Shown here: positions 9,108 through 18,520 of the stretch, piece by piece
Layout of the letters: the number at the start of each line of letters is the position of its first letter
Numbering within the stretch: position 1 is the first letter of the stretch
NCBI GenBank assembly: GCA_017443945.1
Contig: JAFSXS010000090.1
Location: 1 to 50,076, forward strand
Length of the DNA stretch: 50,076 nucleotides
Reading direction: 5' to 3'
Source of the DNA: Synergistaceae bacterium
Lineage (GTDB): Bacteria; Synergistota; Synergistia; Synergistales; Aminobacteriaceae
The notes under the pieces: generated by a model
Database searches by the model: none
What the model was told of the DNA's origin: nothing
What the model saw: the letters and a program-made list of their open reading frames with translations, nothing else
Translations under genes and position numbers: made by a program

Positions 9108-10100
9108 TTACAGCAAAATAATTTTTCTGCCTTCGAGTGAAAGAGTTGCGCTGACTCTGAAATTCAGCATGTCCTGACGCAAATTAAATGAAGGCTCATA
9201 AAGTTTTACAGAGTCGAGTCCGTTAGTGTTTATTCCTGCGAGAGAAAAAATTTTTTGAAGGCGCAAATTTCTTGTAGTGCCTCTGATTGTGCCGGGGTTG
9301 TCAATTATTACGCGCGGAGGATTTGAGATAATATTTATATTTATGTGATTGTCGATATTGTAATCTGAGTGAATGAGCGCATTTATAAAAATTTCCCTGA
9401 ATGAGTCTGCGCACTTGTTAGAAAGTTTTAGAGTCAGTCTAGGCAAAATTTTTGTGTAAGCGTCCCAGATATTATTTGCTTCAAGTGAAATTATTTGCGT
9501 GTGATGAAGTTCTGCGCGAATCTCTAAACGTCTGCCAAACATTAGCGCACCTGCAAAAGTTAAGTGTTTACCCGAATAAATAAAGCTCCTCCGCAAAAAT
9601 TCTTGATTGGTCAAAAATTTATATTCATCGTGCAAATTTGTTAGAACGCTGCGAAATTTTTTTATGCAATCTTCATCAAGCGAGTCAAAAACGGGGAAAT
9701 CATCGCGGGAAAATTCCAGAGAGTCAGAGGCCATTAAAATTTTTGCGTGCCTGCCTGACATGAGATTAACGCCTTCAACTCTGCGAAAGACTTTGTTATG
9801 TAAATTTTGCGGTTTGTCGTGCCATGAAAGAGCTTCAACGGGAAAAATTATGATTCGTGCAGGAGAGTCAAATATTTGCGAGTCCGGCCTGAAAATTTTT
9901 GTGTTGTCGGGCAAACCTGAAATTATTATATTGTCCTGTGTATCGAGTTCAGCACCTGCGATTATCCATCCGCCGAAACTATTTGCGAGCGCGTTAATTG
10001 ACTCGGGAATCTTATAAAGCTCGTCGCCCCGTAAAAATTGTCTGTCTTGATTCGCCGTTTTTCGCAGGAAGTCTTCAAAGCTCGAAAATTTTGCGCTCAC
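9108..10100 (-). CDS. AlbA_2/HATPase_c_4 ATP-binding regulator-like protein, coupled to a sirtuin
   Basis: A 330-residue soluble protein with two recognisable parts. Residues about 18-130 resemble an AlbA_2 (Schlafen-type) domain: ELYKIPESINALANSFGG followed by IIAGAE. Residues about 195-330 resemble HATPase_c_4: SFREIFINALIHSDY, then PPRVIIDNPGTI. Proteins of this kind are often annotated as RecG-like or DNA-binding transcriptional regulators and occur near defence genes, but activity is rarely shown. The GTG start overlaps the sirtuin stop by 4 bp (GTGA), so the two are translationally coupled. The C-terminus is shorter than in members that carry a winged helix. DNA binding and ATP use are inferred. 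Confidence 0.7.
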   Translation of the reverse strand: MSAKFSSFEDFLRKTANQDRQFLRGDELYKIPESINALANSFGGWIIAGAELDTQDNIIISGLPDNTKIFRPDSQIFDSPARIIIFPVEALSWHDKPQNLHNKVFRRVEGVNLMSGRHAKILMASDSLEFSRDDFPVFDSLDEDCIKKFRSVLTNLHDEYKFLTNQEFLRRSFIYSGKHLTFAGALMFGRRLEIRAELHHTQIISLEANNIWDAYTKILPRLTLKLSNKCADSFREIFINALIHSDYNIDNHININIISNPPRVIIDNPGTIRGTTRNLRLQKIFSLAGINTNGLDSVKLYEPSFNLRQDMLNFRVSATLSLEGRKIILL

Positions 10101-10939
10101 AATAATTTTTCTAGGATTTCGCCAATGTCAGAATCAATGCTGATAGAACGTTCAGAAATTCCTGCGCGTGAAGGTATATGAGCCTCACCGAGATTTATGC
10201 AGCAGTAAAAAGCGTCTGGCCATTCACGAGTCATTTTCCAGAATGGAAATTTTATTATTCCTGGCGTGTTGTAGCCTGTGCCGAGTTCGAGGAACAAAGT
10301 TTTTTTCTTGCAGCTATCATCAAGGAAACGGGAATAATTTTTTGCTGCTTTGTGCCATCCGGAGTCCTCGACGAAAGTATCATCAATGCGCAAATTTGTT
10401 GTCATTTCCCGGCCGCATTTAGGGCAGTGAGGGATTAAATTTTCGGGGACTCGCATATTTTTCTGGCCATAAAACATTTTTGTGATTATTTCTTCGTTGT
10501 CATAAGTCTTATAGTGGCATGGCAGCGGACATTGAAATAAACCGTAATCGCCTTGAGTGTAAAAGAGTCTAGTTTTGTCAAATCCGGCGCGTTGGAAGCA
10601 GTGATCTACATTTGTTGTGATGACAAAATAATTTTTCCCGTCCAAGATATTCAATAAATTATTATAAACTGGTTTGGGCGGATTAGTGAAGCGGTTCAAG
10701 AAAATATTTCGACTCCAGAATGCCCATTTTTCGGAGCTTGACTCGAACGTGCAGAAGCCTCCTGAATACATGTCATGGAAATTATATTTTTTCTCGAAGT
10801 CAGCGAAATTTTTTGTGAATCTCCCGCCGTCGTAAGTGAGTCCAGCTGAAGTTGAGAGTCCTGCGCCTGCTCCGATTATTATTGCTTGAGACTCGTTTAA
10901 TGCGTTTTTGAGTCGCGTAAATTTTTCTGTCTCTGTCAT
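10097..10939 (-). CDS. Class-M-like sirtuin (Sir2 family, SirTM type)
   Basis: A 280-residue NAD-binding Sir2-fold protein. The N-terminus has GAGAGLSTSAGLTY, where deacetylase sirtuins have GAGxSxxxGIPxFRG. TTNVDHCFQ follows, then FYTQGDYGLFQ, where the usual catalytic HG pair is replaced by QG. Zinc ligands are CPLPC and CPKC. These features, together with DDTFVEDSGWH and LELGTGYNTPGIIK, match the SirTM group, which in Firmicutes ADP-ribosylates lipoylated GcvH-like carriers and is encoded with a macrodomain. No macrodomain or lipoate gene is present here; the partner is an AlbA_2/HATPase protein. AAAGGAG lies upstream of ATG. ADP-ribosyltransferase activity is inferred. Confidence 0.8.
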   Translation of the reverse strand: MTETEKFTRLKNALNESQAIIIGAGAGLSTSAGLTYDGGRFTKNFADFEKKYNFHDMYSGGFCTFESSSEKWAFWSRNIFLNRFTNPPKPVYNNLLNILDGKNYFVITTNVDHCFQRAGFDKTRLFYTQGDYGLFQCPLPCHYKTYDNEEIITKMFYGQKNMRVPENLIPHCPKCGREMTTNLRIDDTFVEDSGWHKAAKNYSRFLDDSCKKKTLFLELGTGYNTPGIIKFPFWKMTREWPDAFYCCINLGEAHIPSRAGISERSISIDSDIGEILEKLL

Positions 10940-11234: not shown

Positions 11235-11690
11235 TGTCAATAAAGTAGACACATAAAACAGGAAAAATAAAAATTATATTGTATTTTCTTTCTCAAAAAA
11301 TATTTCTCTTTCATCAGGTGAAAGTCCGCTATTAGCACTATGAGGGTGTTTAGGATTATAAAAACTGTTTTGTAAAGCAAATTTCTAATTTTTTCTGAAG
11401 TGTACTGAGAGCCCCTATCTGAATGAAATATAATAAGTGAGAGACAGTCTCTATTATTCCATTCATGAACTATACTTTTCTCGACAAGTTTAGCATTCAA
11501 ACTCTGAGAAAGTTGCCAACTGATAATTTTTCTTGCAAAAAGATCCATTACTACACAAAGATAGCAAAAACCTTTGGAGGTACGAATATAAGTTATATCA
11601 CTAGCCCAGACTTGGTTAGGTGATTTAGGATTAAACTGTTGTTTCAATAAACACTTTCGGAAAGTAAATTTTTATGCATGACATTATAAA
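11235..11690 (-). pseudogene. IS3-family (IS150-like) transposase OrfB remnant
   Basis: The fragment begins inside OrfB with KQQFNPKSPNQVWASDITYI (first catalytic Asp), then VVMDLFARKIISWQLS and IIFHSDRGSQYTS (second Asp). It then jumps, with an internal deletion of about 40-50 residues and a frameshift near 11370, to FYNPKHPHSANSGLSPDERE. The Glu of the DDE triad is lost. The true C-terminus ends at about 11279, not in the frame read through from upstream. The element's right terminal repeat, TGTCAATAAAGTAGACA, starts at 11235. The N-terminal part of OrfB and all of OrfA are missing, cut by the MITE-like element at 11700. Non-functional. Confidence 0.85.
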
Positions 11691-11789
11691 TTAATATAAG
11701 GGAGTGTCAGATTTTTGTGTAAATGGAATCCGAAATTCAGTATTTGCAAGGTTTCAATTTTCTAATTACACAAAATTTTGGACAAACCC
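11645..11789. repeat. Inverted long repeat, copy A
   Basis: A 145-bp segment repeated in inverted orientation at 48556-48693 with only a few substitutions and one 7-bp length difference. It comprises a 90-bp MITE-like element (11700-11789) plus about 50 bp of the adjoining IS3 remnant, including ACTTTC-GG-AAAGT. Because the flanking IS3 sequence is shared, the MITE had already entered an IS3 copy before the segment was duplicated. Confidence 0.85.
11700..11789. mobile_element. MITE-like element with 25-bp imperfect terminal inverted repeats
   Basis: The two ends read inwards GGGAGTGTCAGATTTTTGTG and GGGTTTGTCCAAAATTTTGT, and both continue with GTAA. These are imperfect inverted repeats resembling the ends of IS256-family elements (GGG..TGTC...TTTGTGTAA). 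With 90 bp and no coding capacity it fits a miniature element mobilised in trans. No clear target duplication was seen. It sits between an IS3 remnant and an IS5 remnant. Confidence 0.65.
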
Positions 11790-11807
11790 TAATTACGGCC
11801 TCCGCAA

Positions 11808-12214
11808 AAATTTCCCCTGTAATATAAAATTTATTACTATTTGAGCTTTTTGTGTGTATTTCTTTTTCTTGCCGCTGTAGTATTCTGATGTTCCCTTTTT
11901 AGCCGCTTGATTTTACTTTCAGTTTTTGTTTATCAGAGAGCTTAAATTCTTCACATGAAGCCAATGTTTTTCTACAAGTTTTATTATGTCATATGTTGTA
12001 CTTACGGATATTTCATATTCGTTTGCAATATCTTCCATAGTACGATAATTGCGATAATAAGCTAAAAAGATGCACAAAAGTATTAATCTCAGGCGGACAC
12101 CTCCCATTTTATGGCTTTCTATAAATTTATCAAGCACGATAAAAAATGTATTACGCTTAACACCTAAAATCCTTTGAAATTTTTCATATGTAATTTTTCT
12201 ATTTGCTCTGTATG
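11808..12214 (-). pseudogene. IS5-family transposase N-terminal remnant
   Basis: Reading on the minus strand, ITYEKFQRILGVKRNTF (about 12195-12145) and LRLILLCIFLAYYRNYRT match the helix-turn-helix that opens IS5-family DDE transposases. The EYEISVSTTYDIIK recognition helix follows. In-frame stops then occur at 11919 and just after it. Beyond them the same frame resumes with SEYYSGKKKKYTQKAQIVI (about 11875-11820), the segment after the first catalytic Asp. The catalytic core beyond this is absent, and the MITE-like element begins about 20 bp further on. No start codon with a ribosome site is visible. A decayed fragment, not a gene. Confidence 0.75.
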
Positions 12215-12310: not shown

Positions 12311-13723
12311 TTAATTATTTGCCCACTGTTGCAAAATTGAAACTTCTGCGGGATTATTGCGATTAATAATTTCGAATAAATGCGTTAATATACCCTTTGC
12401 AATTACACATTTATAAAAATTTTCGCCGTGTTGAATTAAATCACCTTCGAGGCCGTAATTAATAACAGGGCATACAGCACAATAAGGCATATACACACAA
12501 TCACAGCACATCGGAAGAGACTCAATGCATGAAGCTGTGCATATTGCATGTGCGGCAGGCGACAACATTAATTCGCGGTAAGTGTTGTCAACAGTTCCCA
12601 AGCAAAAAATATTATCGCCCATATTCGCAAACATTCGGCCTTCGTCGCAAGTATAAATATTTCCGTCGAAATTAACAGCAATTTGTCCCGTTGCAGCACC
12701 GCAAGGAGAACGAAATTCAGTGTGGCCGGCTGATTCATTATTTAGAATGCGTCTCAAGTAAATACAGGCCGTAGACTCTGTAATATAAATTCCCTGCTGA
12801 CACTTTTTGAGCATATAATCAAGCACTCTGCAATAAAATTTTACATATTCTTCCGGAGTATAGCCTATAATATCCCAATTTTCACGAGCACGCCCCAACG
12901 GTGTCAGCGGTCGAATATAAATATTATTCATTCCGTTAGATATGTATTCGTCAACTATTTCTTCAGGAAAATTCAATGATTTTTGGGTTGTTGTCTGAAT
13001 AGCACTGATTACAGGATTTTTCCCGGACTCTATGCAAAGTTTTCTGTATAAATCTGCTCCTGCGTGCCAAGCGTCATAACTTGATTTATTCACAGACAAA
13101 GGCCGGTTATATTCGTGTATGATTCTATTGCCGTCAAGAGACGTAGAAATATGTATATCATTATCAATCAGCCAGCGTAATAAATCAGAGTCAATATTTG
13201 TGAAATTGCTTACTATTGCAAAATCGACGTGTTTTCCGTGCTCTTTAAAAATTTGCCGTGCATATGAAATAGTGAATCTCAAAGCCTCTGGATTTAGTGT
13301 AGGTTCGCCGCCCTGAAATTCAATCGTCATATGTGAAACGGGAGATTGTACAGCTAAATTAACAGCTTTCCTGCATACTTCAACAGAAATTTTTGATATA
13401 TTTGCTTCTCCCGCCTGACAGTAAATACAGCGTTGATTACATGAATCAGTCAATACAATTATAAAAAGTTGTGCAGCACTCAAGAGACATTTTTTCATCG
13501 CGGCCATATCATGCTGAAATTTTGATATATATTTGTCCCTGTCATAGTAAACAAAACCGAGTTTTTGCAGAGAATTAAATATATTGCTTTCTGGTGATAA
13601 TCTGCCTTCTACAAAATCATAAAATTTATCTTTGCTCAGGAAAAAATATTTGCCCATATCATTTGTCAGCAAAAAATCCCCGTTAAATTCCGTCCAGTTA
13701 TAATAAGCTGTAAAATAATTCAT
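12311..13723 (-). CDS. hxsB: His-Xaa-Ser system radical SAM/SPASM maturase HxsB
   Basis: A radical SAM enzyme of 470 residues. Residues about 1-85 form a non-catalytic N-terminal domain that may bind the precursor. The [4Fe-4S]/SAM motif is TDSCNQRCIYCQ (about 92-103), and a GGEPTLN segment follows at about 140. The C-terminal SPASM-type region has many cysteines: CGAATGQ, YTCDEGR, CTASC, MCCDCVYMPYCAVCP. This matches HxsB of the His-Xaa-Ser peptide-maturation system, one of two rSAM enzymes thought to modify HxsA. It is the last gene of a five-gene run (hxsA-hxsD-A24-hxsC-hxsB). The ribosome site is AAAGGTG. The chemical modification made is unknown. Confidence 0.85.
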   Translation of the reverse strand: MNYFTAYYNWTEFNGDFLLTNDMGKYFFLSKDKFYDFVEGRLSPESNIFNSLQKLGFVYYDRDKYISKFQHDMAAMKKCLLSAAQLFIIVLTDSCNQRCIYCQAGEANISKISVEVCRKAVNLAVQSPVSHMTIEFQGGEPTLNPEALRFTISYARQIFKEHGKHVDFAIVSNFTNIDSDLLRWLIDNDIHISTSLDGNRIIHEYNRPLSVNKSSYDAWHAGADLYRKLCIESGKNPVISAIQTTTQKSLNFPEEIVDEYISNGMNNIYIRPLTPLGRARENWDIIGYTPEEYVKFYCRVLDYMLKKCQQGIYITESTACIYLRRILNNESAGHTEFRSPCGAATGQIAVNFDGNIYTCDEGRMFANMGDNIFCLGTVDNTYRELMLSPAAHAICTASCIESLPMCCDCVYMPYCAVCPVINYGLEGDLIQHGENFYKCVIAKGILTHLFEIINRNNPAEVSILQQWANN

Positions 13724-13737
13724 GTGCGATTCACCTT

Positions 13738-14583
13738 TTAATACGGCCTAATGTTTATATCAGGCATAATTTTCGTAGTACGGAAAAATCCTCCGCAATC
13801 ATTTTTTCTCGTGCAAATTCCGCATTCATTCAAGTATTCAATTTTTGAAGGTGTAATACTTTTTCTGTATATAGTCTGCAAATTTTTATCTACAATGCAG
13901 AGCGGATAATTATATAATTCGACTTCTACGCCGTTCATAATGAGTATATAAGCTGCTTCACGAACAAACGGCCATAATTCATCATAACTGCACCAGACTT
14001 TATTTCTGTTAATCATAGCATTGCCCATCATCTCAAGCCCCATTAAACAGACATGACTGCAATAGGGATATTTTTTCGCAATCATAAAAGCGAGTGCAGG
14101 CAAATTTTTATAATTGAGTCTTGATGTTACTATACGGATTTCGATATGTTCTCCGGATTTATGAAGATTATCAAGCCCGCACAGAGTCTCGTTAAAGCTG
14201 CCTTCAGTCTGTGAAATATAATCATGAAGTCCGGAATTATCAGCATGAAGAGGAATCCCTAATAAAGTTTTATACGGCCTAACTTTTTGGAAATCTGAGA
14301 GAAAATCTTTATACGCAAATGTACGCCCGTTTGTGAGAATGTGCAGTATCGCGGAAGAAAAATAATTTCTGCAATAATCAACCAGATTCAGAAAATCGTC
14401 GCGCAGTATTGTAGGTTCTCCGCCGGTTATACATATATATTCAGTATGGGGACTCATTGAGGCAATAAATTTTTTCAGATTAGTTAGCGGCTCAGATTTT
14501 GCATTAAGCCTGAAATTTTCCGTGTATGGACACATTATACAGTTAGAGTTGCAAAGCCCCGTAGTAAATATAGTATCTGCCAT
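13738..14583 (-). CDS. hxsC: His-Xaa-Ser system radical SAM maturase HxsC
   Basis: A 281-residue radical SAM protein. The cluster motif is CNSNCIMC (residues about 11-18), followed by YICITGGEPT (about 50) and strands of the partial TIM barrel (LHILTNGR). The C-terminus has CGICTRKNDCGGFF, a Cys-rich auxiliary motif characteristic of HxsC. It lies 14 nt upstream of hxsB and 19 nt downstream of the A24-peptidase-like gene. Like HxsB it is expected to act on HxsA; whether the two act in sequence or as a complex is not known. AGGGGA lies before ATG. Confidence 0.83.
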   Translation of the reverse strand: MADTIFTTGLCNSNCIMCPYTENFRLNAKSEPLTNLKKFIASMSPHTEYICITGGEPTILRDDFLNLVDYCRNYFSSAILHILTNGRTFAYKDFLSDFQKVRPYKTLLGIPLHADNSGLHDYISQTEGSFNETLCGLDNLHKSGEHIEIRIVTSRLNYKNLPALAFMIAKKYPYCSHVCLMGLEMMGNAMINRNKVWCSYDELWPFVREAAYILIMNGVEVELYNYPLCIVDKNLQTIYRKSITPSKIEYLNECGICTRKNDCGGFFRTTKIMPDINIRPY

Positions 14584-14602
14584 AAAATTTTATTTCCCCT
14601 TT

Positions 14603-15595
14603 CTAGCGTCCAAGCAAAATGAATCGCAATATTTCAATTAATACAGCTCCGGCAATAAAAGGCGCAAAGGGCATCATTTCGACTATAATTATATTGCTGT
14701 GATTGTTCCTGCACCAAATTTTTATAGCTTTAGCCTGACTCTTTGTGATTCGAGACCTTCTATTTTCCGTTGTAATCTTTGGGAGTTCAGGATCAGTACA
14801 TTTTTTCATAGCCCATAACGAAACAAAAGCTAGAATCATTCCCGGCCGTATTTCATCCGCTGAAATTTCCCGGTAAGTATTGACTCTGACTCTATTGCTG
14901 ATAAATTCTATTATAGACGCTATAACGAGGCTGAGAGCTAAATTTATAAAAGTGTTTGATAATATACTGAATATCAAGCCCATAAGGCCTATTATTTTTC
15001 TTGCAGGGTCAAATTTATTATGAATCAGAAATATTAACGCGATCGAAAATAGTACGCACAACATTTGATTTGCATAAAAGAAGTCGGGCGCGCAAGTGTT
15101 CAGCAAAATATTAAAGAATGATATTACACCTGCATTTGCGAGAATAGAAATAGCGTTACGAAAGCTGAAATTATAATTTATGTTGATTTTACCGCCATTT
15201 TTGCGCATAAAAGTTGTTATAATCAAGAAAATATACCCAAGCGCAAAGGAATATATAACGAAATTCAATGCAGGAAAAATATTCCCGTCTCTCACAACAT
15301 AAAAGCGCATAGGAAAAATTAACGAGATAACAATATAAAATTTGCAGTCCCCCGGTGCCCAAATATCTGTCATATAAAATATTACAGCCGTTATGACTGC
15401 GAATAAAAAATTTATTGCAAACGGTAAAATCTGAATCGATAATGACTGCGAGATAAAATATTCACTAGCAACAATAACCGTCCAGACAGCCAAGAAAATA
15501 ATTAAATGTTTGTTTCTCACTCGTCCTGAGCTAATATCAGTGAAAGCTCCAGTTATTGAGGCAATTAATACGAGTAATATATATGCAGGAGTCAT
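14603..15595 (-). CDS. A24 prepilin-peptidase-like membrane protein within the Hxs locus
   Basis: At 330 residues and with about eight membrane helices, it resembles the peptidase domain of type IV prepilin peptidases (A24). TGAFTDISSGRVRNK places an Asp at about residue 20 at the end of TM1. DIWAPGDCKFY places a second Asp at about 83, corresponding to the GxGD catalytic motif but with A-P-G-D. Both catalytic Asp are therefore present. Residues about 220-300 form a soluble insertion, and a last helix follows. ATG lies 3 nt after the hxsD stop, so it belongs to the operon. It may cleave HxsA, whose Lys-Gly before a hydrophobic stretch resembles a prepilin leader. No pilin genes are present. 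Confidence 0.75.
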   Translation of the reverse strand: MTPAYILLVLIASITGAFTDISSGRVRNKHLIIFLAVWTVIVASEYFISQSLSIQILPFAINFLFAVITAVIFYMTDIWAPGDCKFYIVISLIFPMRFYVVRDGNIFPALNFVIYSFALGYIFLIITTFMRKNGGKININYNFSFRNAISILANAGVISFFNILLNTCAPDFFYANQMLCVLFSIALIFLIHNKFDPARKIIGLMGLIFSILSNTFINLALSLVIASIIEFISNRVRVNTYREISADEIRPGMILAFVSLWAMKKCTDPELPKITTENRRSRITKSQAKAIKIWCRNNHSNIIIVEMMPFAPFIAGAVLIEILRFILLGR

Positions 15596-15598
15596 TAT

Positions 15599-16027
15599 TT
15601 ATTCTTCAGACCAGCTAGCAAAAATATTTTTCTCATCCTCGCGCCAATTTGATTTTATTTCTACTGTGTCGGACTCTGAAATTTCCCGTTCAGGTTCAAT
15701 GCATGAAGCATAAAGGGAGCGCGCTACAAGTAATTCTCTTATACCCTTTGTACGGCGGGCAGTGTCAAGCCTAATCATTTGAAAGCTAAGTTCCTTCATG
15801 ATAATTGCTATTTCCTGCTCGATAGAAATTAATTTTTCGGCTGATTCAAAGAATACATTAATAAATGCACCGTCGTTCTCATAATAAATAATATATTTCT
15901 CGTGAAAACGATATAGAGCTTTCATAACAGCTTCACGGGCGTATAAATTTCTGTCGAGTCTTATAACAAAACCGTTATTCGTCAGTTCATATGATTTCAA
16001 ACTTTTTCTCCGTAATGATACTACCAT
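15599..16027 (-). CDS. hxsD: His-Xaa-Ser system protein HxsD
   Basis: A small soluble protein of 142 residues. The N-terminal half (GFVIRLDRNLYAREAVMKAL, about 17-36) looks like a short ferredoxin-like beta-alpha unit. The C-terminal half has FQMIRLDTARRTKGIREL and LVARSLYAS, resembling the conserved end of HxsD, the small partner of the HxsB/HxsC enzymes. HxsD has no demonstrated activity and may act as a peptide-recognition or chaperone component. Its ATG overlaps the end of hxsA by 7 bp (ATGGTAG), indicating coupled translation of precursor and partner. Confidence 0.75.
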   Translation of the reverse strand: MVVSLRRKSLKSYELTNNGFVIRLDRNLYAREAVMKALYRFHEKYIIYYENDGAFINVFFESAEKLISIEQEIAIIMKELSFQMIRLDTARRTKGIRELLVARSLYASCIEPEREISESDTVEIKSNWREDEKNIFASWSEE

Positions 16028-16305
16028 TTAAACATATTATTGTTATGGCTTGCATGACTCGCGTGGCTTGAGTGGCTCGAATGACGCGGATAAGTATAAT
16101 TGCTATGGCTCATATGACCAAAATTACTGTGGCTGCCGTGCCAAGCAGATGCATCGTCTACACAAAGGGTACACGCAAGCACCACCATTAATGACCCCAC
16201 CGCGAGAAGCTGTCCCTTCGGTATACTGGCCTCTTCATCAAGCAGAAAATCTGATATAGAATGATTGACAACTGACTCAAGCTCACTAAATAACTTCTTC
16301 GACAT
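16021..16305 (-). CDS. hxsA: His-Xaa-Ser repeat precursor peptide HxsA
   Basis: A 94-residue precursor. Residues 1-30 form a polar, helical leader (MSKKLFSELESVV...). K30-G31 is followed by a hydrophobic stretch (32-49) and D-D-A-S-A (50-54). From 55 on comes a His/Ser-rich tail with six H-x-S triplets (starting at H56, H64, H75, H78, H81, H84) and extra H-S pairs, ending NNNMFKW. This is the HxsA signature. The hydrophobic stretch could be a signal sequence cut after ASA, or a prepilin-like segment cut after G31. It is the first gene of the operon and overlaps hxsD. A GGGA ribosome site precedes ATG, and a TATAAT-like -10 lies at 16348-16353. Confidence 0.88.
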   Translation of the reverse strand: MSKKLFSELESVVNHSISDFLLDEEASIPKGQLLAVGSLMVVLACTLCVDDASAWHGSHSNFGHMSHSNYTYPRHSSHSSHASHASHNNNMFKW

Positions 16306-16362: not shown

Positions 16363-16539
16363 TTATTTAACTGGGACTATATCAGGCGATACAGGAGTCT
16401 TCACGTATGGGACATAAATATTTGAGTGATAATTATAACTGCTGCTATGGTTATGGATACTACACGCAAGCACCACCATTAACGAACCCACCACAATTAT
16501 TCTTCACTTAACAGAAATTATAGCCTCTTCGTGCAACAT
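16363..16539 (-). pseudogene. Decayed second HxsA-like precursor
   Basis: Immediately upstream of hxsA, the minus strand carries a related but shorter precursor: MLHEEAIISVK, a TGA stop (16504-16506), RIIVVGSLMVVLACS, then SIHNHSSSYNYHSN and a Pro/Val-rich end at 16363. VGSLMVVLAC is identical to residues 36-45 of HxsA, and the DNA around it is nearly identical too. The TGA aligns with the glycine codon (GGA) of the Lys-Gly site in HxsA, a single base change. The first ~20 residues are missing. A GTG at 16494 could still start a 43-residue peptide holding the hydrophobic segment and some His/Ser residues. Most likely a decaying duplicate. Confidence 0.65.
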
Positions 16540-16642: not shown

Positions 16643-17221
16643 ATGGCAATAAGTTTATCAAAGGGTCAAAAAGTAGACCTCACTAAGGGCAACCCGGGAC
16701 TCTCGCGCTTACTTGTCGGACTCGGCTGGGATGTGAACAAATACGATACCGGTTCAGATTTCGACCTCGACGCAGCAGCATTTTTACTCGGTGCAAACGG
16801 CAAAGTTACGAACGACTCAGATTTCATATTCTATAACAACGCGCGGCACTCATCGGGAGCAGTTCAGCATATGGGCGACAATTTAACCGGTGCAGGAGAC
16901 GGCGACGACGAAGAAATTAAAATCGATCTCTCCAGAGTTCCGGCAAATATCGAAAAAATTGCGTTCACCGTTACTATTCACGAAGCAGAGTCAAGACGGC
17001 AAAATTTCGGACAGGTCTCAAACGCTTTTATTAGAGTTGTCGACGAGGCCAAGAATCAGGAATTAATACGCTACGATTTGGGCGAAGATTTCTCGATTGA
17101 GACAGCTGTTGTTGTCGGTGAACTTTACAGGAACGCGGGCGAATGGAAATTTACAGCAACAGGTTCAGGCTTCAAAGGCGGTCTGCGTGCGTTGTGCGTT
17201 AATTTCGGCGTGAACGTCTAA
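16643..17221 (+). CDS. terD: TerD-family stress protein
   Basis: A 192-residue soluble TerD-domain protein, starting [15 protein letters not shown]. It has the calcium-site pattern [13 protein letters not shown] and [17 protein letters not shown], with the acidic residues that bind Ca2+ in characterised TerD proteins. The family is tied to tellurite resistance, phage inhibition and membrane stress, with no single agreed mechanism. It is the first of three adjacent genes (TerD, AIM24-like, TerD). AAGGAGG lies before ATG. A TATAAT at about 16618 lies upstream without a convincing -35. Confidence 0.9.
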
Positions 17222-17908
17222 ATGAAATACGAAATTTTACATCAGGACGCTTTTCCCGTCGTTAAGTGCGATTTACAAACCGGCGAGTCAGTCAAGGCCG
17301 AGTCTGATGCAATGGTCGCAATGTCTGCAAATCTCGATATTTCCGGTTCAATGGGCAATAAAGGCTTTCTCGGAGGTTTGGCGCGAAAATTTTTAACGGG
17401 AGAAAGTTTTTTCTTTCAGCGTGTAACAGCAGCAAGAGGCCCCGGCAGTGTTTTATTTGGTCATCCTGCACCGGGCGGAATAATTGATGTAAATCTTGAC
17501 GGCTCTTACGGACTGAGAGTCCAGAAAAATGGATTCTTAGCGTCAGAAGAAAGCATAGAAATTGATACAACAATGCAAAATTTATCGCAAGGGTTATTTT
17601 CTCGTGAAGGATTCTTTGTCTTGAACGTTCACGGACGCGGGACTGTTTTTCTTAGCAGCTTCGGGGCAATCCACGCAATTAATTTAGCAGACAACGAAGA
17701 ATTTATTATTGATAACGGACATTTAGTCGCTTGGCCTGATTACATGCAATATAAAATCGAGAAGGCTGCTAGCGGGTGGTTCTCAAGTATTGCGAGCGGT
17801 GAGAGTCTTGTTTGCAGATTCACAGGGCCGGGAACGGTTTTAATTCAAACGAGAAATCCCGACGCTTTTACAACATGGCTTAAATCTTTAGGCATAGGAG
17901 GCAATTAA
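17222..17908 (+). CDS. AIM24 / TIGR00266-family protein
   Basis: A 228-residue beta-rich protein without membrane helices. KYEILHQDAFPVVKCDL opens the N-terminus. ESFFFQRVTA and PGGIIDVNLDG lie in the middle, and GTVFLSSFGAI and GPGTVLIQTRNP near the end. These are hallmarks of the AIM24 (TIGR00266) domain, a trimeric beta-helix-like fold of unclear function that is often encoded beside TerD proteins. Its ATG follows the terD stop directly (0 nt), and the second TerD gene starts 3 nt after its own stop, so the three are one transcription unit. Function unknown. Confidence 0.85.
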   Translation: MKYEILHQDAFPVVKCDLQTGESVKAESDAMVAMSANLDISGSMGNKGFLGGLARKFLTGESFFFQRVTAARGPGSVLFGHPAPGGIIDVNLDGSYGLRVQKNGFLASEESIEIDTTMQNLSQGLFSREGFFVLNVHGRGTVFLSSFGAIHAINLADNEEFIIDNGHLVAWPDYMQYKIEKAASGWFSSIASGESLVCRFTGPGTVLIQTRNPDAFTTWLKSLGIGGN

Positions 17909-17911
17909 TAA

Positions 17912-18520
17912 ATGGTAAATTTACAAAAGGGTCAAAAAGTTGAACTCAGGAAATCTGACGGAGGCTCGCTAAAAAAAGTTGTAATCGGTCTCGGCTGGGA
18001 CGAAATAAAAAAGGAGTCGGGCGGATTCTTGGGCGGTCTGTTCGGAGGCGGGAAAAAGACTCACGATATTGACTGCGACGCAACTGTATTTTTGTGCGTG
18101 AACGGCAAAGTAACAGACTCTGAAGACGTAGTTTATTTCGGGAATCTCAAGCACTCATCAGGAGCAGTCCGTCATATGGGCGATAATTTAACCGGTGCAG
18201 GCGAGGGCGACGACGAAGAAATTTTTATAGACCTTACATCACTTCCCGCAAAATACGATAAAATTATATTCGTTGTAAATATTTATAAGGCCAATGAGCG
18301 CGGACAGCATTTCGGAATGATTAACAACGCTTTTATCAGAATCTATGACGGCGATAATAATCAGGAATTATGCAGATATAATTTATCAGAAAACTATGAC
18401 TCAATGACTGCTATGATATTCGGAGAAATGTATTTACGCAACGGCCAGTGGAAATTTAACGCAATCGGCCAGGCAACACACGATAATTCAATCAGCGAGC
18501 TTTTACGGAGATTCGCTTAA
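17912..18520 (+). CDS. TerD-family stress protein (second copy)
   Basis: A paralogue of the upstream TerD (202 residues). KGQKVELRKSDGGSLKKVV opens it. A Gly/Lys-rich insertion (GGFLGGLFGGGKK, about 30-45) follows, then HDIDCDATVFLC and the same [17 protein letters not shown] acidic loop. It ends with a short polar tail (ISELLRRFA). The insertion resembles TerX-like members that interact with other Ter proteins. AGGAGG precedes ATG. It probably acts with the first TerD and the AIM24-like protein. A DUF533/TerB-like gene at 40.8 kb could belong to the same stress network, but it is not linked. Confidence 0.88.
   Translation: MVNLQKGQKVELRKSDGGSLKKVVIGLGWDEIKKESGGFLGGLFGGGKKTHDIDCDATVFLCVNGKVTDSEDVVYFGNLKHSSGAVRHMGDNLTGAGEGDDEEIFIDLTSLPAKYDKIIFVVNIYKANERGQHFGMINNAFIRIYDGDNNQELCRYNLSENYDSMTAMIFGEMYLRNGQWKFNAIGQATHDNSISELLRRFA

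Follow-up and report, generated by a model that had tools for sequence, protein, structure and literature searches.

A five-gene Hxs operon with a membrane peptidase gene

The Hxs (His-Xaa-Ser) system, a radical S-adenosylmethionine (SAM) peptide system of HxsA, HxsB, HxsC and HxsD, was reportedly described by Haft and Basu and is represented in NCBIfam by TIGR03976-TIGR03979. Here we analyzed an Hxs locus of a Synergistaceae bacterium in a stretch of 50,076 nucleotides (contig JAFSXS010000090.1 of assembly GCA_017443945.1; hereafter the window) that also encodes a predicted membrane peptidase of the A24 (type IV prepilin peptidase) family. Coordinates are window positions unless another locus is named. 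The five genes lie on the minus strand in the order hxsA3-hxsD-A24-hxsC-hxsB and span 12311-16305.

The hxsA3 gene (16021-16305, minus strand) encodes a precursor of 94 amino acids with a charged leader of 29-31 residues, a hydrophobic segment, an AxA site and six H-x-S triplets, and its product falls into subtype HxsA3 (NCBIfam NF038309, 69.4 bits against a cut-off of 65). The hxsD gene (15599-16027, minus strand) is at the expected position in the operon and matches TIGR03976 with 43.4 bits (E 3e-11), under the cut-off of 50. It is followed by the A24 gene (14603-15595, minus strand; 330 amino acids, PF01478), by hxsC for a radical SAM maturase (13738-14583, minus strand; TIGR03977, 280.5 bits against a cut-off of 267.9), and by hxsB for a radical SAM/SPASM maturase (12311-13723, minus strand; TIGR03978, 465.5 bits against a cut-off of 370). 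While hxsA3 and hxsD overlap by 7 nucleotides, gaps of 3, 19 and 14 nucleotides separate hxsD from the A24 gene, the A24 gene from hxsC, and hxsC from hxsB. An earlier note on this DNA had read the five genes with this spacing, the six H-x-S triplets and both A24 aspartates, all of which were borne out by the open reading frames, the NCBIfam models and the alignment. The window locus is a complete, compact HxsA3-type operon.

The A24 protein resembles archaeal FlaK

Against PF01478 (Peptidase_A24), which has a gathering threshold of 26.5 bits, the window protein scored 24.7 bits in one scan and 27 bits in the genome search, and 32 of its 34 relatives matched the family. Five residues, D20, N28, G82, D83 and K85, are invariant in the Hxs-A24 alignment (46/46 rows, 44 distinct). 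D20 and D83 (codons 15536-15538 and 15347-15349, minus strand) are the two aspartates of the GxGD family, with the motifs PGDxK/AGDxK. Related A24 proteins from multi-radical-SAM clusters also keep D20, G82, D83 and K85 (18/18).

FlaK is the archaeal preflagellin peptidase (MEROPS A24B, PDB 3s0x), and its function is leader cleavage. By sequence profile, FlaK 3s0x was the only PDB relative of the A24 protein, with both catalytic aspartates aligned. The AlphaFold model (predicted local distance difference test, 89.9) had its best structural match in the same chain (VIA-align Z 11.5 over 169 residues, root-mean-square deviation 3.5), the next chain having a Z of 5.2. The archaeal family PF06847 matches the C-terminal part of 3 of the 34 Hxs-A24 members, and FlaK_Arch is matched weakly by four. 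Unlike FlaK, the Hxs-A24 proteins are bacterial and are linked to radical SAM maturases rather than archaella, with no archaellin, and their motif is W-x-[AP]-GD where FlaK 3s0x has GGGDGK. The bacterial prepilin peptidases (PilD, ComC, TadV) have the Peptidase_A24 domain (PF01478) in common with them, but form a separate tree branch, and pilus-type A24 proteins have no Hxs genes nearby. The compact Hxs-A24 proteins form one clade (Shimodaira-Hasegawa-like approximate likelihood ratio test, 96) with the pilus-type A24 proteins outside, and their divergence tracks that of HxsB (Mantel r 0.85) and HxsC (0.84) by distance correlation. Judged by profile and model, the closest relative of Hxs-A24 is archaeal FlaK rather than bacterial PilD, and the fifth protein of the operon is a predicted FlaK-type GxGD aspartyl membrane peptidase.

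The A24 gene belongs to the Hxs operon in Clostridia and Synergistota

A scan for HxsB across 84,980 species, each represented by a single genome, gave the 80 nearest HxsB loci. The A24 gene is located between hxsD and hxsC in 43 of them, namely two Synergistaceae loci and all 41 complete Clostridia loci (Lachnospiraceae, Oscillospiraceae, Clostridium, Desulfosporosinus and others), where it usually touches or overlaps the neighboring genes. The window and locus L016 share this position, and all four Synergistaceae with a complete operon carry the gene there. Two Clostridia exceptions were set aside, L031, whose contig begins inside hxsB, and L101, which has an orphan hxsB; in L054 the A24 gene is present and broken by an assembly gap. 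Absence of A24 genes beside Hxs loci in relatives, or variable aspartates among the homologues, would have told against the earlier note; the complete loci of both groups all carry the gene, and D20 and D83 do not vary.

HxsB was found in 7 of 188 Synergistota genomes. Four of these, all of the window's genus, have hxsA-hxsD-A24-hxsC-hxsB, and a fifth genome of the genus (G061) retains only hxsB and hxsD. Full-length relatives of Hxs-A24, searched with an A24 profile built from these four, occurred among the 188 genomes only in the four with the full operon (Fisher 7e-7). Among 378 Lachnospiraceae genomes they occurred in four, each time beside hxsB, which is present in six (Fisher 2e-8); of the two remaining hxsB genomes, one locus is at a contig end and the other is an internally deleted orphan hxsB. 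As a control, 26 other (pilus-type) A24 loci in Lachnospiraceae had no HxsB, HxsC or HxsD within roughly 1.5 kb to either side. In this Hxs subtype the A24 gene is conserved, dedicated to the system and inherited together with it.

We also considered whether this A24 could be the general prepilin peptidase of the cell, and rejected it: the window's genome has an ordinary PilD prepilin peptidase on a separate contig (locus L018), its sole other A24 gene, and one A24-carrying genome has no other A24 match (in Oscillibacter ruminantium the Hxs-A24 is the sole A24 found).

The hxsD gene is kept in all complete A24 loci. HxsD is probably a leader-binding or scaffold protein that acts as a helper; when its structure model was searched with Foldseek, no PDB match at E <= 0.001 was returned, and a leader-binding fold has no support from this search. 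A second short HxsD-like protein (about 70 amino acids) is encoded between hxsD and the A24 gene in L033, L034, L036 and 18 other Clostridia loci, and is absent from the Synergistaceae loci. The orphan HxsB of L101 (5983-9720) lies two genes from a membrane protein with an HSSH-rich tail, possibly a different target.

The HxsA3 precursor carries a leader before its hydrophobic segment

All 36 aligned relatives of the window precursor match NF038309, in which NCBIfam names the precursor only; NCBIfam holds no model for the A24 partner. Precursors in A24 loci have a common plan, a P-K-I-x-K-S leader, the motif E-E-G/A-x-I-x-R/K-N/G/S, a hydrophobic segment, V/A-x-A, and the H-x-S repeats. The leader motif and the hydrophobic segment were present in 41/41 precursors, and in 40 of them the first H-x-S follows the junction after 23-24 residues. 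In the window, the leader motif EEASIPKG-Q and the hydrophobic segment ending in ASA (HxsA3 residues 24-54; 16144-16236, minus strand) form a candidate cleavage region for A24 and for signal peptidase I. Small residues (GS/GT) are conserved within the segment. The precursors of L060 and L064 end in a hydrophobic segment and a Lys tail, resembling a membrane anchor.

Class III signal peptides have a hydrophilic leader of 6-26 amino acids followed by a hydrophobic tract of about 21, and in type IV prepilins the leader precedes the membrane segment, remains cytoplasmic and is cleaved on that side (PMC4471445). HxsA3 matches this order, but its leader has about 26-35 amino acids and its tract about 17-19. 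Because of the order of parts in the precursors of A24 loci, the hydrophobic segment appears to be preceded by a recognition leader, as in type IV prepilins. Two candidate A24 sites would fit, the junction R-[N/G/S]+K (K-G+Q in the window, with the cut at the plus sign) or the conserved E-E-[G/A]. A signal-peptidase-I-like site is found directly before the repeats in 40/41 precursors and suggests a second cut, on the outside.

The A24 gene follows the leader type of HxsA in other phyla

The 36 genomes behind non-Clostridial Hxs loci were searched whole, and 21 of them had an A24 match. Nearly all of these A24 proteins have the motif W-x-A-G-D-[AS]-K and adjoin HxsC-like or HxsC4-like radical SAM genes. 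The related A24 shares a contig with hxsB in Elusimicrobia, Moraniibacteriota and one Omnitrophota genome; in Deltaproteobacteria and Myxococcota it lies elsewhere. In the multi-radical-SAM clusters of the HxsA4/HxsC4 type (NF038313, NF038332), a related A24 likewise adjoins HxsC-like enzymes; these clusters differ from the window operon in having at least four HxsC-like enzymes and an A24 that closes the module, in many cases at a distance from hxsD-hxsB-hxsA. The top HxsC4 match in such clusters was below the cut-off.

HxsA was readable in 21 non-Clostridial genomes, in which A24 presence was compared with leader type, uncorrected for ancestry. A24 was present in 12/15 genomes whose HxsA has the hydrophobic segment and in 0/6 of those without it (p 0.0015); sorted by the EEG motif, the counts were 12/14 and 0/7. 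A first match in L085 was false and was dropped. The match in G605, an ordinary short A24, was left out; if it is included, the p value becomes 0.014. Since leader architecture and A24 presence go together, HxsA is the likely substrate of A24, and this correlation is our best evidence for it.

The Hxs systems of mobile elements use the same HxsB, HxsC and HxsD families and an H-x-S repeat target. They differ from the window type in that their HxsA has a Sec signal at its very N-terminus, their gene order is D-B-C and they have no A24, whereas in the window type the leader comes ahead of the hydrophobic segment and A24 stands between D and C. None of seven plasmid Hxs loci (mobile HxsA/A2 type) had an A24, and the readable plasmid HxsA proteins begin with an ordinary Sec signal, which a long spacer separates from the repeats, the reverse order.

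Further observations concern these other loci. The modules in L160-L178 and L100 (Deltaproteobacteria, Elusimicrobia, Moraniibacteriota) have about four HxsC/HxsC4-like genes and end in an A24 of the WxAGDxK type. Secreted proteins with a common TTYYPAP-x-G-x-Y motif adjoin Hxs or A24 modules in Elusimicrobia (L100, 4640-5467; L177, 7571-8365). HxsB is present on 317 Klebsiella plasmid records, and in the one locus inspected (L026, IncN, near mer genes) a stretch of about 5 kb around hxsD, hxsB and hxsC encodes no protein with H-x-S repeats.

A probable MORN-repeat partner and the surroundings of the window operon

In 33 of the 43 A24 loci, the gene directly upstream of hxsA, often overlapping it, encodes a MORN-repeat protein. 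These proteins begin with a signal segment, whose n-region is long and charged in some of them (L043), and CWB2, SLH or peptidoglycan-binding modules occur in single members. This secreted or membrane protein (L029, 2139-2864, and 32 other A24 loci) appears to be a sixth component, as yet without a name. A24 is present with no MORN gene in the window, in L016 and in about 10/43 loci.

The window locus has lost its MORN gene and one of two hxsA copies, both of which L014 retains. The decayed copy (about 16366-16503, minus strand; RIIVVGSLMVVLAC...HNHSSSYNYHSN...) was recognized by six-frame reading against L014, which has the intact counterpart at the same place (9964-10401); the start and the repeats are lost. 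This copy and the HxsA3 subtype go beyond the earlier note.

The window operon is flanked by genes for FTR1, a Sir2-like protein, an integrase-core fragment, TerD, AIM24, a further TerD, CoaBC, PriA and QueT. No pilin, pilus ATPase, secretin or platform protein was found among the ten nearest flanking genes, in agreement with the earlier note, which had seen none of the first three nearby. Transposase remnants (integrase core, short helix-turn-helix) adjoin hxsB (11237-12137). Within the genus, three loci have TerD or AIM24 genes next to their Hxs genes (window, 16643-18520; L015, 4530-6282; L017, 15733-16422), and the synteny of CoaBC-PriA-QueT is common to the window and L017, in which only hxsB and hxsD are kept.

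Discussion

We consider it probable that the A24 protein serves HxsA3 as its own leader peptidase of the class III type and acts together with export to the envelope. From the known families we infer that HxsB and HxsC would act in the cytoplasm on the H-x-S triplets of HxsA3, to which the N-terminal leader with its EE[G/A] motif would guide them, with HxsD as a probable helper. The hydrophobic segment would then insert in the membrane with the leader remaining inside, and A24 would remove the leader close to the segment, at the cytoplasmic face, in the manner of prepilin and preflagellin peptidases. Depending on signal peptidase I or on retention of the segment, the H-x-S product would either be released or remain anchored in the membrane, facing outside. 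The secreted MORN-repeat protein of most relatives may cooperate at the cell envelope.

Several observations weigh against this proposal. Bacterial prepilin peptidases require Gly at -1, a rule often broken in archaea, and class III signal peptides have Glu at +5, which is often absent in archaea (PMC4471445). The junction residue of the 41 precursors is Gly in 13 (Synergistaceae included), Asn in 19 and Ser in 9, and a near-constant Gly lies several residues before the junction, in EEG (Ala in Synergistaceae). None of the aligned HxsA3 precursors has Glu at +5 of the hydrophobic tract. The idea of the earlier note that the precursor is cut at the membrane has indirect support as to the likely substrate, because leader type and A24 vary together. 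The signal-peptidase-I-like site alone could explain export. Only VIA-align and the sequence profile pointed to FlaK; Foldseek by itself found no significant PDB match for the A24 model. L091 and L106 have an EEG-type HxsA and no A24 match in metagenome-assembled genomes that may be incomplete. In addition, the correlation between leader and A24 ignores shared ancestry, of which it is not free because the six segment-less genomes may be related.

The signal-peptidase-I-like site would also suit a signal-peptide-peptidase-like A24 that clears or regulates the segment left over after signal peptidase I and has no part in leader release, and so would the GxGD family membership and the conserved small residues inside the segment. 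We regard this as unlikely: the kinship of A24 is to FlaK, a leader cleaver, and not to presenilin or signal peptide peptidase, and it is not obvious why every operon would need such a gene. If HxsA3 were exported without A24, the peptidase might instead process the MORN partner, another operon protein or an unlinked pilin-like protein. The MORN proteins, with their signal segments and their genes next to hxsA, would be plausible targets; but A24 persists where the MORN gene is absent, and its presence follows the leader type of HxsA in distant phyla, which makes this quite unlikely.

A pilus-like filament of HxsA3, formed after A24 cleavage, is very improbable. Its class-III-like order of leader and hydrophobic segment would allow one, but neither an assembly ATPase nor a platform protein was found among the window's flanking genes or the gene families common to the loci, Glu at +5 is missing, the signal-peptidase-I-like site would remove the segment, and the mature part is short and of low complexity. 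We therefore rejected polymerization of the kind that the earlier note had raised. Finally, although the window protein scores near the Pfam threshold, we see next to no prospect that A24 is a chance or hitch-hiking neighbor or an inactive scaffold, because its catalytic residues are invariant, its position is kept in two phyla, its co-occurrence is exclusive and it is co-inherited with HxsB and HxsC.

Leader release by a dedicated A24 peptidase, the reading that we prefer, would bear on how Hxs products mature. The open literature that we searched (subscription papers lay outside the search) gave no description of a link between Hxs and A24, and no product structure, known product, function or export route for Hxs. 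The parts of the operon are ordinary and their union is unusual, in compact form in two phyla and recognizable in several more. It is more likely than not that a radical-SAM-modified peptide here loses its leader to a FlaK-type GxGD aspartyl protease, with this removal tied to membrane insertion and with modified His-rich repeats displayed at the envelope, from Clostridia and Synergistota to Elusimicrobia and Deltaproteobacteria; such leader processing of a ribosomally synthesized and post-translationally modified peptide is undescribed in the literature searched. Hxs is a widespread radical SAM peptide system that carries its own membrane protease across many gut bacteria, and this protease and the envelope-associated MORN partner indicate the probable destination of its product. 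At the membrane, A24 probably separates the histidine-rich Hxs product from its leader, and the product is probably placed on the cell surface. The catalytic aspartates offer a direct handle on the modified Hxs precursor. If the proposal is true, peptidases of the prepilin and preflagellin type would extend beyond filaments to the maturation of modified peptides.

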